Source: Bacteroidales bacterium | Lineage (GTDB): Bacteria; Bacteroidota; Bacteroidia; Bacteroidales; JAEINX01 | DNA: 55,195 nucleotides | Direction: 5' to 3' | Assembly (NCBI GenBank): GCA_016342645.1 | Contig: JAEINX010000012.1 | Coordinates: 1 to 55,195 of the forward strand | Part shown: in pieces, positions 50,701 through 55,195 of the stretch | How the letters are laid out: every line of letters starts with the position of its first letter | Position numbering within the stretch: position 1 is the stretch's first letter | Position numbers and translations under genes: made by a program | Notes under the pieces: generated by a model | Told to the model about the DNA's origin: nothing | Database searches by the model: none | The model's input: the letters and a program-made list of their open reading frames with translations, nothing else

Positions 50701-50897
50701 AATTCCTCAAGCCCATGGCAATTTCATTAGCCTACGGTGTTTTGTTCGGAACAGCATTTCTATTATTGTTTTTCCCTGTTTTAATCCTTGTACTTAACGA
50801 TTTAAAAGTTTATGCAATATATTTATGGACAGGCAAAAAACCCATCGCCGAAAGTGTTGAAAAGGCAATTATTCATAGCAAAAGGTCTATTGAGTAA
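47733..50897 (+). CDS. RND family efflux transporter permease (AcrB/MdtB type)
   Basis: A 1054-aa inner-membrane pump with 12 membrane helices and two large periplasmic loops. Typical stretches are VYYPGASPKEMDEAITVRVEEAIRGI-, the proton-relay region of TM4 with GILVDDGIVIAENIYTH, the mirrored TM10 region GVIINDAIVFLAKYN, and YRGQQQDSDETTEQM. The DD pair of TM4 needed for proton coupling is present. It exports a drug or other hydrophobic compound; specificity is not readable. It ends in a hydrophilic tail and is followed by a 1-kb gene-poor stretch. Confidence 0.95.
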   Translation: MRKLISVFVKYPFYGNIIIAILIIGGVLGLLSMKKSFFPEFPTKDIYVNVYYPGASPKEMDEAITVRVEEAIRGIVGIKEVNSSSMENVSNVRITTTGEYDLDETLAEVKNAVDGITSLPIDAERPIVFKQRAASYAMFMGLSGDVDILTLKKYAQQIETDFLNSGLISQVHLGGYPELEISVEISEDDLLRYGISFDEISRAIAFNNRDVSAGIIKSKDEEILIRSRTRSVKPEEIGSIVIKGTTDGNYIRVRDVANVKLQFADVPSESYMNGKRAVSIGVFKLPEEDLAAIEKFCVDYAEKFNNEHSGAELSVTYNFLDILGARLNLLYRNGLIGLFLILITLGLFLSLRVSLWVAWGIPASFLGMFIVAAFYGVTINMISLFGMILVVGILVDDGIVIAENIYTHFEGGKSPKRAAIDGTMEVLPAVLTSITTTIVAFSPLFFIEGRMEFMYEMGFVVVISLAFSLFEAFLVLPGHIGNKHILKSGDTTSLSARTRIRLDKIVAYLRHNVYGFILKKVIEWKWIAVIIPISLIFITVGLFNGGLIKATFFPAIQFNQFNIDVAFTPGSGEAQTLKFQKKFDDAVWEVNEDLKKENNDTIDYIDYTFLSTGSAFSGQENGAHAGNTFVLIHDLEETGASSFDIIQRVRDKIGKVKEAEKLKIAGQGTFGTPISISLLGNDLNVLNEAKTMLIDGMKEIEAIGDISDNNALGKREVQLKLKPKAYFLGLDQTSITNQIRQGFFGGQAQRLQHGKDELRVWVRYPKSGRLNIGQLEKMKIKTQNGEFPLSELAYYDIDRGPVTINRFNSQREVRIDAELVNPIDPVPPIIEKIELDILPEILKKYPNINVEYRGQQQDSDETTEQMTKYFGMAFLIMVLLIMIHFKSLSQAIIIIMMIPLAWLGASWGHGIEGLPVSLLSAWGMIALSGVIINDAIVFLAKYNSLLLEGLKVKDAAFNAGIARFRAIVLTTITTSVGLYPIILEGSFQAEFLKPMAISLAYGVLFGTAFLLLFFPVLILVLNDLKVYAIYLWTGKKPIAESVEKAIIHSKRSIE

Positions 50898-50905
50898 ATG
50901 AATAA

Positions 50906-50937
50906 GAGAATGAGAGAATGAGAGAATGGGAGAATTA
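50906..50937. repeat. Four 8-bp GAGAATGA units after the RND gene
   Basis: Four consecutive 8-bp units (GAGAATGA twice, GAGAATGG, GAGAATTA) lie 8 nt after the stop codon. The unit resembles the AATGATAG-type units before the epimerase gene at 45628-45731. Confidence 0.8.
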
Positions 50938-50995
50938 TTGAATGAAACTCCCATGCTTAATTTAAAGCACAAAGGAGAATGAATATTAAAAGCAG

Positions 50996-51033
50996 TCAAT
51001 CTATTCAATCTTTTCAATCCTGTTAATCTTGTC
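50996..51033. repeat. Short direct repeats of TCAATC type
   Basis: Four imperfect 9-10-bp units share (T)CAATC or AATC cores. They form a non-coding low-complexity block. Confidence 0.7.
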
Positions 51034-51100
51034 AAAAATTAGAAACATAATAAGATGCGGAAATAAGAGGAGTAAATAATTTTATTCAAAAGTTTATTGA

Positions 51101-51406
51101 AAAACCTTTTCATTACACATAAACGCTAAAGAAATCCGCATTGATAATCTGGCAATACAAGCTGATATCTTCGAAAAACGATCGGAGAGCCGCGCAAAAT
51201 GGATGAAGAGTCAAAACGAACGAAATATCTCACAAAAAGAACAGAATCTTTCCCAAAACGAGCTAACAATTTTTAAAAACGCCCAAACATTTTCGCAAAA
51301 CCTGCGAATGATGTTGAAAATCGTGCAGATAATAATGTTAAACCGGCGAATAATAAAGAAAAATCACTCAATAATCAATAACTTAGCACAGATTCGCAAT
51401 AAATAA
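51101..51406 (+). other. Possible gene remnant encoding a heptad-repeat peptide
   Basis: After a TGA (51098-51100) the frame stays open for 101 codons plus stop, with an internal ATG at 51203. In the translation, hydrophobic residues recur every seven (SQNERNI, SQKEQNL, SQNELTI, FKNAQTF, SQNLRMM), like a coiled coil, and the preceding part (IRIDNLAIQADIFEKR) looks protein-like. There is no recognised family, no clear promoter, and the last third is low-complexity. It may be the remains of a larger gene. Confidence 0.3.
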
Positions 51407-51478
51407 AACAACCTACACAAATTTATTATAATTATTTTATATGTTTCAATAGAAACACAATAATTTTATCAATAGCAG

Positions 51479-51498
51479 CCCATGACTTCAGTAATGGG
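51479..51498. repeat. Short hairpin element with CCCAT/ATGGG arms
   Basis: CCCAT (51479-51483) pairs with ATGGG (51494-51498) around GACTTCAGTA. GACTTCAGT-centred hairpins are, from memory, recurrent intergenic elements in some Bacteroidota; the number of copies elsewhere cannot be judged here. Confidence 0.45.
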
Positions 51499-51866
51499 TT
51501 TTGAAACAAATGATCATAGGAAATAATCGTTTAAGCGGTTTAAAAAGAAGTTTAAAAGTATAATAGTACAGGCCTCTACCAACTTAAGACACTCCAAACT
51601 TTAGAAACCTTAATCTTGAGGCACTCAAAATACTTTTATTTGGTGATATGAATATTATTTTGTTACTTTGTTGGACATTTTAGTTTAAAATGCTTTACGG
51701 TTTGGTTTTATTGAAGTTATAAATGAAAGAAAAAGTGAAAGAATTGCGAATAGTATAGCTGAAAATATATGGCATTAAGCATTTACACAAGTTACTACAA
51801 AGCAAATGAACAAAAATAGTAATCAAATCTCAGAAAATTTATGTATCAAATGCATTGAAAAAAAGT

Positions 51867-51874
51867 TATATTTG
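51867..51874 (+). promoter_or_regulatory. Candidate -7 element of the sce7726/sce7725/RES operon
   Basis: TATATTTG matches TAnnTTTG. The predicted transcription start is about 7 nt downstream, leaving a leader of about 17 nt before the GTG start at 51898. No TTG at the usual -33 distance is seen; one occurs closer, at 51855-51857. Confidence 0.5.
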
Positions 51875-51897
51875 CAATAATAAATTAATTTATAGTT

Positions 51898-52767
51898 GTG
51901 CAATTTAAAACAACATATAGTCAAAATCAATTGCGTGATTACTCTGCTTTATTTTTAAGGAATGAGGCAAAATCATGGTTAAAAAGTGACTTTACCTCAG
52001 TAAATTGCAAAATCGAAAGATATGATAGACATTGGAAAAATTCGTCGAATACTACGTATTATGATTATTTAAAATATGTTTACACTATTTTGGAAAAATA
52101 CTATCAAAATGAGTATGTGGTAAAAAATGCTTTTTTAACTGAATGGTTAATTAATGAAATCGGTCAGTCTAATTCAAGAGTCTTCAGTGAGTACCGAGTA
52201 GGCAATGCTATTGCAGACTTAGCTATTTTCAACGGAAATTCTAAAGTATTTGAGATTAAATCTGAATATGATACCGATAACCGTTTGGTATTCCAGCTTG
52301 AAAATTATCGAAAAGCATTTAATCAAATATTTCTAATTATTCCAGAAACCAAGTTATTTATATATAAAAAATATGATTTCAGAGTAGGGATAATAACTTA
52401 TAAAAGAAGTCCAACACAAAAGTTTATTCTTTATCGAAATGCAATAAATAACTCAGAAGTAGATGCTAAGACTATTATGCATATTCTTCATACGCCTGAA
52501 TATAAGGCAATTGTTAAATCATATTTTGGCAATCTGCCTAAATTAACAAGTTTCAACCAGTTCCATATATGTAGTAACCTTATCAAGCAAATTCCCCCAA
52601 AAGAATTAAATAAGTACTTCATTGAACAAATGAAAAAGAGAAGTTTTGAAAATGTTATGTCAAGTCGATATTACAAGATATTTAACCAATTAAGTTTATC
52701 ACTAAAATTGGATAAAAAAGCAATGAAAAACCTAATAGATAACATTAAATCACCAATAAATGATTAA
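51898..52767 (+). CDS. sce7726 family protein, PD-(D/E)xK nuclease fold
   Basis: A 289-aa protein that starts at GTG (51898-51900). The core reads SEYRVGNAIADLAIF, then VFEIKSEYDT: E98, D107 and E119-x-K121 form a complete PD-(D/E)xK metal-site pattern, so nuclease activity is plausible. The N-terminal part is helical and the C-terminal 90 residues form a second helical region. I recognise it as the sce7726 family, named from Sorangium. The next gene, 3 nt downstream, is its usual partner sce7725. Experimental function is unknown to me. Confidence 0.82.
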   Translation: MQFKTTYSQNQLRDYSALFLRNEAKSWLKSDFTSVNCKIERYDRHWKNSSNTTYYDYLKYVYTILEKYYQNEYVVKNAFLTEWLINEIGQSNSRVFSEYRVGNAIADLAIFNGNSKVFEIKSEYDTDNRLVFQLENYRKAFNQIFLIIPETKLFIYKKYDFRVGIITYKRSPTQKFILYRNAINNSEVDAKTIMHILHTPEYKAIVKSYFGNLPKLTSFNQFHICSNLIKQIPPKELNKYFIEQMKKRSFENVMSSRYYKIFNQLSLSLKLDKKAMKNLIDNIKSPIND

Positions 52768-52770
52768 AAT

Positions 52771-53706
52771 ATGTATTATCCATTATTAAGAGCAAGACAG
52801 TTTGAACTTATTGCATTACGTGAGTTAGCCAATGAAGGGATAACACAGAATTATATTTTACCAATATTAGAACCTGTAAAAGAAACTCAAAATAATCTAA
52901 ACCTTGCATATAGAGTTTTTCAGCAACAACAACAGAAAGTATATTTAATTGTGAATCCTACCGTTGGAGAATTAGTTGGAGACACCGATGTTTTTATCAA
53001 GTATATAACCAATCAAGATGAAAAAGTTTTAATCCCTGCATTTTATTATCACAGAAATGCAGATTATATCTGTAAAAGTATTGCCGATTACCATTTAAAG
53101 AATTGCATGTTAATTTGTCAAAACGATGTAAGTCCAGATGACCAGGATTTTACAAGCTTAGTACTAAAAGAGGAAATCACTTCTATAAATATTAAAGATC
53201 CTGGTAGAAATAGAGAGTTAAATCGGTTTCTTCGAGGATTGAATAAGAATTACATCCGATTAGATGATTTATTTGAAAAACAAGCCCGCAATAGTGATTT
53301 TCTTGATATTGCTGAACACAGATTCTCTGAGGAGCACATTTATTACAAGACTGAAGGATTTGGAGGTTTCTCTGACTATACTGTTTTACCAAGCGAATAT
53401 ACCGATAGTGGCAGTACACCTAGAGCAGTTGTTATACACATTACATATTTAAATAGTCAAAACCAAATATGGATTAGACATTTCACCTCGGATAGTAATG
53501 ATTCAATCGCTAATGTTCAAGGAAAATTTGCCGAAGCAGCAGATAAAGCTGTAGCGTATTGTAGAAAAAACCATTTAACCAACTCCGCAATTCAAGAATT
53601 AGAAAATTATTTTGATGAGGAGCATTATCCAGGTCTGGGTACAATAAAAAAAATATCAATTAAGAATCACCTTTTAATCGTTAGTGAATATTTAAGAAAT
53701 AAGTAA
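52771..53706 (+). CDS. sce7725 family (Beta_protein-like) protein
   Basis: A 311-aa protein opening with MYYPLLRARQFELIALRELA, the hallmark of the sce7725 family. Alternating strands and helices (ILPILEPV, YLIVNPTVGEL, VLIPAFYYHR) suggest a TIM-barrel-like or phage Beta_protein-like fold. AEHRFSEEHIYYKTEGFGGFSDYTVLP in the middle is strongly conserved-looking. It sits tightly between the sce7726 and RES genes (3- and 5-nt gaps), so the three must be co-transcribed. Catalytic residues cannot be assigned. It may act with the nuclease-like partner. Confidence 0.82.
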   Translation: MYYPLLRARQFELIALRELANEGITQNYILPILEPVKETQNNLNLAYRVFQQQQQKVYLIVNPTVGELVGDTDVFIKYITNQDEKVLIPAFYYHRNADYICKSIADYHLKNCMLICQNDVSPDDQDFTSLVLKEEITSINIKDPGRNRELNRFLRGLNKNYIRLDDLFEKQARNSDFLDIAEHRFSEEHIYYKTEGFGGFSDYTVLPSEYTDSGSTPRAVVIHITYLNSQNQIWIRHFTSDSNDSIANVQGKFAEAADKAVAYCRKNHLTNSAIQELENYFDEEHYPGLGTIKKISIKNHLLIVSEYLRNK

Positions 53707-53711
53707 AAAGT

Positions 53712-54728
53712 ATGGAAGTTTGTCCAAATTGTTTTTTAGATAAAGAAATAAAAGGATATATAATATCTTCAACAAATACCGGTAAATGCGGGGTTTGTAA
53801 TTCTACTAATGTTTCACTAACTCCCTTAATTGAGTTGCTCGACTTTTTTCAGGAGCTAATTGATAATTTTCGAATATCAAAGAATGGGAAACCACTGAAA
53901 TTAAAAATTCAAGAAGACTGGAACTTTTTCTATTCTCATAATATAGCTAATAAAATCCTAAATGAGATATTACCTCAACTTTCAACTGATATTAATAACG
54001 CAGAAGTTAAAGTTGATTATGCAGAGGATATAATTGAAAGTTATATGTATTGGGAAACGTTGAAGGAAGAATTGAAATGGTCTAAAAGGTTTATTTCTAA
54101 TATTGATTACTTAGAAGAATTGGGATGGGATGGTTTTTTTGATACTCAATTTGAACTAAAACCAACAGATAACTTGTTTCGGGCAAGAGTTCATCATCAG
54201 AGTGGCCTCGAAGCCTTTAATACAAATGAAATGATGAGTCCAAAACCACAGCAGGTTTCTGGTGGACGTGCTAATCCATTAGGTATCCCATATTTATATT
54301 TGTGTGATAACCCTGAAACTGTTCTTTATGAAGTTCGTGCCTCCTATTTGGATGAATTAAGCGTTGCCATGTTTCAATTAAAAGACGAATTCACTTCAAT
54401 TAAAATTGTCGATTTCACCGAAGATACACCAATCTTTCAACCAAATCATATTAATAAAACAATAAAGGCTAGCCAATTAAGAAAAAGAATTAGCCGAGAC
54501 CTCTCAAAACCGATGAGAAGGTATGATACTGAGATTGAATATATACCTACTCAATTTATTTGTGAATACATTAATGTTATTACAGGGGCAAGTGGCATTC
54601 GGTTTAGCAGCTCATTACATTTAGTAGGAAAAAACATTGTTATTTTTGACCAAACCCTAATGCATTGTAAGGAAGTTAAACTGAGAAAAGTGAACAGTGT
54701 GGATTTGAAATCAATAGAACTGAAGTGA
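53712..54728 (+). CDS. RES-domain protein with N-terminal zinc ribbon and helical (HEPN-like) domain
   Basis: A 338-aa protein. A zinc ribbon at the start has C4-x2-C7 and C26-x2-C29. A helical region (about 35-150) resembles the HEPN/RES N-terminal domain. The RES domain (about 150-320) shows NLFRARVHH (R157, R159), GGRANPLGIPYLYL and NPETVLYEVR (E202, Y206). RES toxins studied elsewhere consume NAD+, so this is the likely effector. Unlike Xre-RES toxin-antitoxin pairs, no Xre antitoxin gene is adjacent; instead it ends an operon with sce7726 and sce7725 genes. Function in this setting is inferred. Confidence 0.85.
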   Translation: MEVCPNCFLDKEIKGYIISSTNTGKCGVCNSTNVSLTPLIELLDFFQELIDNFRISKNGKPLKLKIQEDWNFFYSHNIANKILNEILPQLSTDINNAEVKVDYAEDIIESYMYWETLKEELKWSKRFISNIDYLEELGWDGFFDTQFELKPTDNLFRARVHHQSGLEAFNTNEMMSPKPQQVSGGRANPLGIPYLYLCDNPETVLYEVRASYLDELSVAMFQLKDEFTSIKIVDFTEDTPIFQPNHINKTIKASQLRKRISRDLSKPMRRYDTEIEYIPTQFICEYINVITGASGIRFSSSLHLVGKNIVIFDQTLMHCKEVKLRKVNSVDLKSIELK

Positions 54729-54882
54729 ATTACATTTAGGCAGAAAAGTACATTTTGGTAACATGCCATAATCCTTTTTGCTAAACTGTCTAAAAACCTA
54801 AAAGATATTCAATATTTTTAATTACTCATTTCTTTTTAACACTTATATTTTGTTGAAACTAAGCATATTTATAGTCTAAAGA

Positions 54883-55195
54883 ATGGGGAGTAGCATAGTA
54901 AGTCCATTTGCAGGAATTTCTTTTGTAAATGATTGTTTTGAAAAATTAGGTATATGCAAACTTATTGATAAAGAACTTGGTAACAGAGTTTTTTCTTATG
55001 GTTATCAATATAGTGAAATAATAAAAAATTTAACAAATGTATTTTTAAGCGGAGGAGATTGTGTAGAAGATAACTATACCGGGTAATAATGTACCGGGTC
55101 CTGACACTGTTTTAAGGTGAATAAAAGAATTGTCCACCGAAAATACTGTTTACACTTCGGATAGGAACATTTCCTATAATTTCAATATAAATGAA
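54883..55195 (+). pseudogene. Broken IS1380-like transposase, 5' part
   Basis: The first 67 codons encode an IS1380-type N terminus (SPFAGISFVNDCFEKLG; VFLSGGDCVED) and stop at TAA (55084-55086). The family sequence resumes in the +1 frame from about 55079 (PGNNVPGPDTVLR), then meets a TGA (55118-55120) and continues as IKELSTENTVYTS to the window edge. A frameshift plus a stop codon show it is inactive. No terminal inverted repeat could be defined in the 154 nt after the RES gene. It flanks the accessory operon and fits a history of transfer. Confidence 0.8.

Follow-up and report, generated by a model that had tools for sequence, protein, structure and literature searches.

Near the right end of the window, that is, the whole 55,195-nt stretch of Bacteroidales DNA analysed here, lies a compact operon of three genes, sce7726, sce7725 and a gene for a RES-domain protein, which very probably belongs to phage defence. 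It is rather likely that this trio is a phage-triggered abortive-infection module, in which an NAD+-depleting RES effector is controlled by a pair of proteins that resemble Beta and cII of phage satellite P4. This is the best explanation of a three-gene operon with recognisable homologies, invariant active sites, a defence-island context and repeated loss of RES alone. A sequence-only reading of the same DNA had put forward a candidate defence or toxin module controlled by two of its proteins, and that proposal is now supported by the enrichment of defence genes around the trio and by homology to the gop-beta-cII and PD-lambda-2 systems.

All three genes are located on the forward strand. The sce7726-family gene (51898-52767) has a GTG start and encodes 289 aa (NF033832, E 7e-47), the sce7725-family gene (52771-53706) encodes 311 aa (NF033831, E 9.3e-94), and the RES gene (53712-54728) encodes 338 aa (PF08808, E 1.3e-11); the first two matches pass the NCBIfam cut-off and the third passes the Pfam cut-off. 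The gaps are 3 nt between sce7726 and sce7725 and 5 nt between sce7725 and RES, as expected from the tightly packed rightward genes of the sequence-only reading. Compared with relatives at 62-83% DNA identity, the trio genes showed dN/dS values of about 0.07-0.20 wherever dS could be estimated. The three genes are under purifying selection and are all real. The single candidate promoter of that reading did not hold up, as the promoter-like TATATTTGC at 51867 is at chance level (22 such matches in the window vs 18.6 expected). No Rfam families were found in 50800-55195.

The window ends 467 bases 3' of the operon. The broken transposase reported there was recovered as a transposase-like N-terminal fragment (54883-55195) that reaches the contig end; its stretch 54883-55086 recurs elsewhere in the genome. 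Related copies (87-91%) lie close to the ends of two other contigs of this genome, C52 and C54, so an insertion sequence probably broke the assembly at this point. Upstream of the operon, the gene-poor block at 50898-51897 contains dispersed AT-rich repeats and has no Rfam match. Other contigs of the genome carry at least 12 copies of an element of about 100 bp (about 51634-51741), with 72-82% identity and with several of the copies at contig ends, and the pieces 50900-50945 and 51447-51510 likewise recur in the genome.

The arrangement is widely conserved. Among the best 80 sce7725 relatives from 84,980 species genomes, a set that is biased to close relatives, 74 loci have sce7726, sce7725 and RES on a single strand and in the order seen here, with median gaps of 3 nt, and five of the six other loci are cut by contig ends. 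These 80 loci come in part from Bacteroidota, Chlorobiota, Ignavibacteriales, Kapaibacterium and Cloacimonadota, and the remainder from Fibrobacter, Spirochaetales, Lachnospiraceae and Gammaproteobacteria. Since the same gene order recurs at this frequency and the genes are under the selection described above, the operon is beyond chance. Family-wide searches for sce7725 in samples of three phyla, with a selection independent of RES, gave a similar picture: RES adjoins sce7725 in 25 of 27 genomes, or 22 of 24 when three seed genomes are removed. By phylum, the counts were 13/14 in Bacteroidota, 4/4 in Pseudomonadota and 8/9 in Bacillota, where one of the eight RES genes counted is frameshifted. 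The linkage of RES as third member, on which the original proposal depended, therefore recurs in unrelated phyla. The trio is also carried by plasmids of Moraxella, Rhizobium and Shinella. The distance matrices of the three proteins correlate with r 0.89-0.92 across 31 loci (0/2000 permutations), a value to which shared species history contributes. In Enterococcus (L003, 5306-7513) and on a Listeria phage contig (L107), sce7725 is found without a recognisable sce7726; the Enterococcus gene is preceded by a gene for a 229-aa uncharacterised protein and followed by a GNAT gene.

The RES protein consists of a zinc ribbon, a helical region and the RES domain, an architecture that the sequence-only reading had described correctly. 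The four-cysteine zinc ribbon (53721-53798) is formed by C4, C7, C26 and C29, of which the first three are invariant and C29 is present in more than 90% of 66 homologues. The helical domain (53820-54146) is probably HEPN/RES-NTD1-like, as judged from PF18870 matches in relatives. This match passes the cut-off in L015 (5.7e-9), remains under it in L002 (1e-4), is weak in L002, L007, L008, L011 and L019, and is not seen in the RES protein of the window, whose helical domain also carries no catalytic HEPN motif (R-x4-6-H). In the RES ADP-ribosyltransferase-fold domain (54159-54707), R157, R159, R186, Y196, E207, S300 and N308 are invariant in the 66 homologues, and the conservation of the active site that had been anticipated is thus observed. 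The active site of the NatT toxin contains R23, R82, Y93, S184 and N193 (PMC11535050), and in our reading, matched by the order of motifs, the invariant residues correspond to these positions. The AlphaFold model of the RES protein (pLDDT 91.7) matched MbcT (VIA Z 12.2, rmsd 3.5, 158 aligned), NatT (VIA Z 11.8) and ParT (VIA Z 9.3), and all three scores are above those of unrelated comparisons. The protein is quite probably an active NAD+ phosphorylase. No relative was found in viral contigs scanned with the RES protein, and a search of solved structures by sequence gave no meaningful E-value for any of the three proteins.

The sce7726 protein shows an ExK...QxxxY pattern of the RecB/Cas4-like type and is predicted to be a PD-(D/E)xK nuclease. 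Its predicted core (52189-52308) comprises E98, D107, E119-x-K121 and Q133-xxx-Y137, and all six residues are invariant in 36 homologues. The pattern claimed earlier (E98, D107, E119-x-K121) is present in full, and membership in the superfamily is indicated, at the sequence level, by conservation of the E/D...D...ExK catalytic constellation in the 36 sequences. A QxxxY motif of this kind is known in RecB/Cas4-like nucleases. The PADLOC model named 'cll', which represents P4 cII, matches the sce7726 protein of the window (E 4.3e-16) and 11 of 11 homologues tested; within the trio, PADLOC recognised this part only. A comparison of the window protein with P4 cII by hhalign gave E 4e-16, and P4 cII matches the sce7726 model with E 2.5e-44. 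Judged by these matches, P4 cII belongs to the sce7726 family.

The relationship of sce7725 to Beta is much more distant. The claim of a Beta_protein-like second protein fell short at the level of Pfam, where the match (E 0.0038) is under the cut-off, and gained its backing from a comparison of profiles. The sce7725 family profile aligned to eight Beta proteins over 304 columns with an hhalign score of 57.8 and a probability of 92.8%, and the score was still 54.4 without P4 Beta. In the controls, the best of 100 column shuffles reached 22.1 and the reversed profile 21.4, and the sce7726 and RES profiles scored 15.8 and 11.2. When one sequence each of sce7725 and P4 Beta was compared with hhalign, the match was weak, and significance was obtained only with the family alignment and controls. 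The profiles place sce7725, along its full length, as a very remote relative of P4 Beta and PD-lambda-2C. None of 12 sce7725 proteins matched the PADLOC beta model. The AlphaFold model (pLDDT 93.9) predicts a TIM barrel, and its structural matches are TIM barrels, a fold that by itself is silent on function. A Foldseek search against viral models had an uncharacterised Gordonia phage protein as its top match; P4 Beta was simply not listed, so this result is neutral on kinship with Beta.

The closest known system is gop-beta-cII, which was missed in the comparisons of the sequence-only reading. It is a validated anti-phage system of P4 with activity against lambda and P1, in which Gop shows toxicity when Beta is missing (PMC9122126). 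Like the trio, it is a three-gene unit on mobile elements with variable defence cargo adjacent, and it combines a cII of the sce7726 family with a Beta that is a distant relative of sce7725 over the full length. The differences are that RES takes the place of Gop (133 aa) and that the cII-like gene is co-directional and first in the trio, whereas cII is convergent and last in P4. No PADLOC gop match was found in the window, and a comparison of RES with Gop indicated no relationship. The trio was therefore rejected as a member of gop-beta-cII, since it has no Gop and the PADLOC beta model is unmatched, although its cII part is recognised. By analogy, the best reading is that the trio differs from gop-beta-cII in its killer and would work like it.

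PD-lambda-2 is a toxin-based abortive defence system of a HigB-like protein, an Xre-peptidase and a Beta-like protein (PMC9519451). It shares with the trio a Beta relative among three parts and lacks an sce7726 protein; conversely, HigB-like and Xre-peptidase partners were found neither in the operon nor next to it. The RES-Xre systems (MbcT-MbcA, NatT-NatR and ParT-ParS) share the RES fold and the invariant active-site residues with the trio, which differs in its extra zinc ribbon and helical domain, its two unrelated partner proteins and its lack of an Xre-type antitoxin. The earlier statement that no Xre gene is present here can be extended, as a search of the entire genome (93.5% complete) found no Xre/MbcA/ParS antitoxin domain (PF09722). 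The trio was not classified as a RES-Xre type II toxin-antitoxin system, since it has the RES protein without an adjacent Xre/MbcA/ParS antitoxin. The part of Anantharaman et al. 2013 consulted (PMC3710099) lists the same domain order (Zn-ribbon - HEPN/RES-NTD1 - RES) as nothing more than a fusion and makes no mention of a strict operon that joins such a gene to sce7726 and sce7725, as in the trio. In the open-access journal literature, where sce7726 or sce7725 is named in five papers, no paper was found that describes the trio as one system. The sce7726/sce7725 pair of Leptospira is listed in the literature.

The genomic context of the trio is that of mobile and defence islands. In E. coli, it occurs in 18 of 5426 complete genomes and is 97% identical to the Salmonella copy. 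Five of five inspected E. coli loci are in or adjoin a mobilisable island, each with a relaxase gene and with tyrosine recombinases annotated nearby; because one island type is common to them, these loci are not independent. The islands carry changing defence cargo, such as Kiwa (KwaB), caspase-TIR-cyclase, SIR2 and reverse transcriptase genes, with BREX and AbiE nearby. In Salmonella houtenae, the trio is located within an ICE-like element, and a caspase-like gene is close by. A search for nearby defence genes, which the sequence-only reading had suggested, gave a positive result: around 18 trio loci picked at random, 130 neighbour proteins matched 49 PADLOC families (E <= 1e-15), compared with 18 families for 130 proteins from random regions, an enrichment that is qualitative because families and not proteins were counted. 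Families among the matches listed include ShosA/T, NsnA, HEC-06, TIR effectors, ThsA, LmuA and PD-T4-2, and the matches of the random regions are mostly redundant helicase models.

In the preferred reading, the base shared with P4 gop-beta-cII would consist of a nuclease-fold protein (sce7726/cII) and a TIM-barrel protein (sce7725/Beta). In the uninfected cell, this pair would hold RES silent. Infection would be sensed by the pair, which would lead to release or activation of RES, and the PD-(D/E)xK protein may contribute to the trigger by binding or cutting nucleic acid. Active RES would act as an NAD(P)+ phosphorylase and stop growth, and with the loss of NAD+ in the infected cell the phage would be aborted. 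The toxicity, the NAD+ loss, the trigger and the role of the nuclease are parts of this explanation that we infer. For the silencing of RES by the pair, we see an even balance of chances. Since PD-lambda-2C is required for defence and dispensable for toxin neutralisation (PMC9519451), restraint of RES by the pair is only one option.

The pair may instead be needed for switching RES on, a possibility to which we give less weight. RES would then be silenced by its own zinc-ribbon and helical N-terminal part, and the pair would serve as infection sensor and switch and not as antitoxin. The behaviour of PD-lambda-2C agrees with this. RES proteins with related N-terminal domains also stand alone in L006, L007, L008, L168 and L169, so this class of RES may be able to remain silent without the pair, and an intact RES was retained after loss of the pair in L005. 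However, P4 Beta protects against Gop (PMC9122126), and the pattern of loss also points in the other direction. RES is missing, deleted or frameshifted with an intact pair in five loci (L022, L072, L104, L124 and L117), whereas loss of the pair with an intact RES was observed in L005 alone, an actinobacterial plasmid where the C-terminal end of a truncated sce7725 precedes RES; IS6100 lies alongside and has probably removed the promoter. Repeated RES loss fits RES as the costly member, in small numbers. The Bacteroidota genome G012 contains a divergent sce7726-sce7725 pair that lacks RES (L022, 1-3891) and, on a different contig, a zinc-ribbon RES gene that lacks the pair (L168, 1486-2673).

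It is improbable that the trio is a plain addiction module, in which a RES toxin and a new non-Xre antitoxin would retain mobile elements with no anti-phage role. Such a module would suit the plasmids and the ICE-like and mobilisable islands on which the trio is found, including an IME of P. aeruginosa PA_HN002 in which its genes are listed with no function given (PMC9394441), and in Xre systems the RES protein is a toxin of type II; but the neighbours of the trio are strongly of the defence type, both relatives of the pair sit in validated defence systems, and simple addiction has no need for a conserved nuclease fold. Restriction-like attack of sce7726 on phage DNA, with RES as a back-up suicide arm, is similarly unlikely, since the invariant catalytic residues and QxxxY motif that would favour it occur in a unit without a methylase or specificity subunit, and this nuclease is paired with a small killer protein in P4.

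If the preferred reading is true, RES NAD+ phosphorylases would join the NAD+-depleting effectors of bacterial immunity, which so far are mainly TIR and SIR2 proteins (PMC11535050), and sce7725 and sce7726, two widespread families without assigned function, would be explained. The little-understood gop-beta-cII and PD-lambda-2 would be tied into one superfamily. Beta and cII could, with about equal chances for and against, form a widespread immune base with an exchangeable killer, which is Gop in P4 and RES in the trio. Outside Enterobacteria, the form with RES may be the common one; RES NAD+ phosphorylases would then have a part in defence against phages, with a TIM-barrel protein and not an Xre antitoxin as their regulator. 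With a locus native to E. coli, it can be tested directly whether Beta proteins serve as antitoxins or as infection sensors.

Related genes also occur in other arrangements. On rhizobial, Pseudomonas and Azospirillum plasmids (L139, 2845-5703; L140, 2686-5601; L137, 3620-5453), a Beta-like gene converges with sce7726, as in P4, without Gop. The proteins upstream of Beta on the S. fredii and P. putida plasmids are neither Gop nor RES and are mutually unrelated; they are possible, unproven cases of other killer swaps. In the Pseudomonadota sample, Beta_protein genes (L131, 261-1469; L135, 2546-3871; L132; L134) are often found beside genes for Xre-peptidase or ImmA/IrrE-type peptidases, an arrangement comparable to PD-lambda-2.
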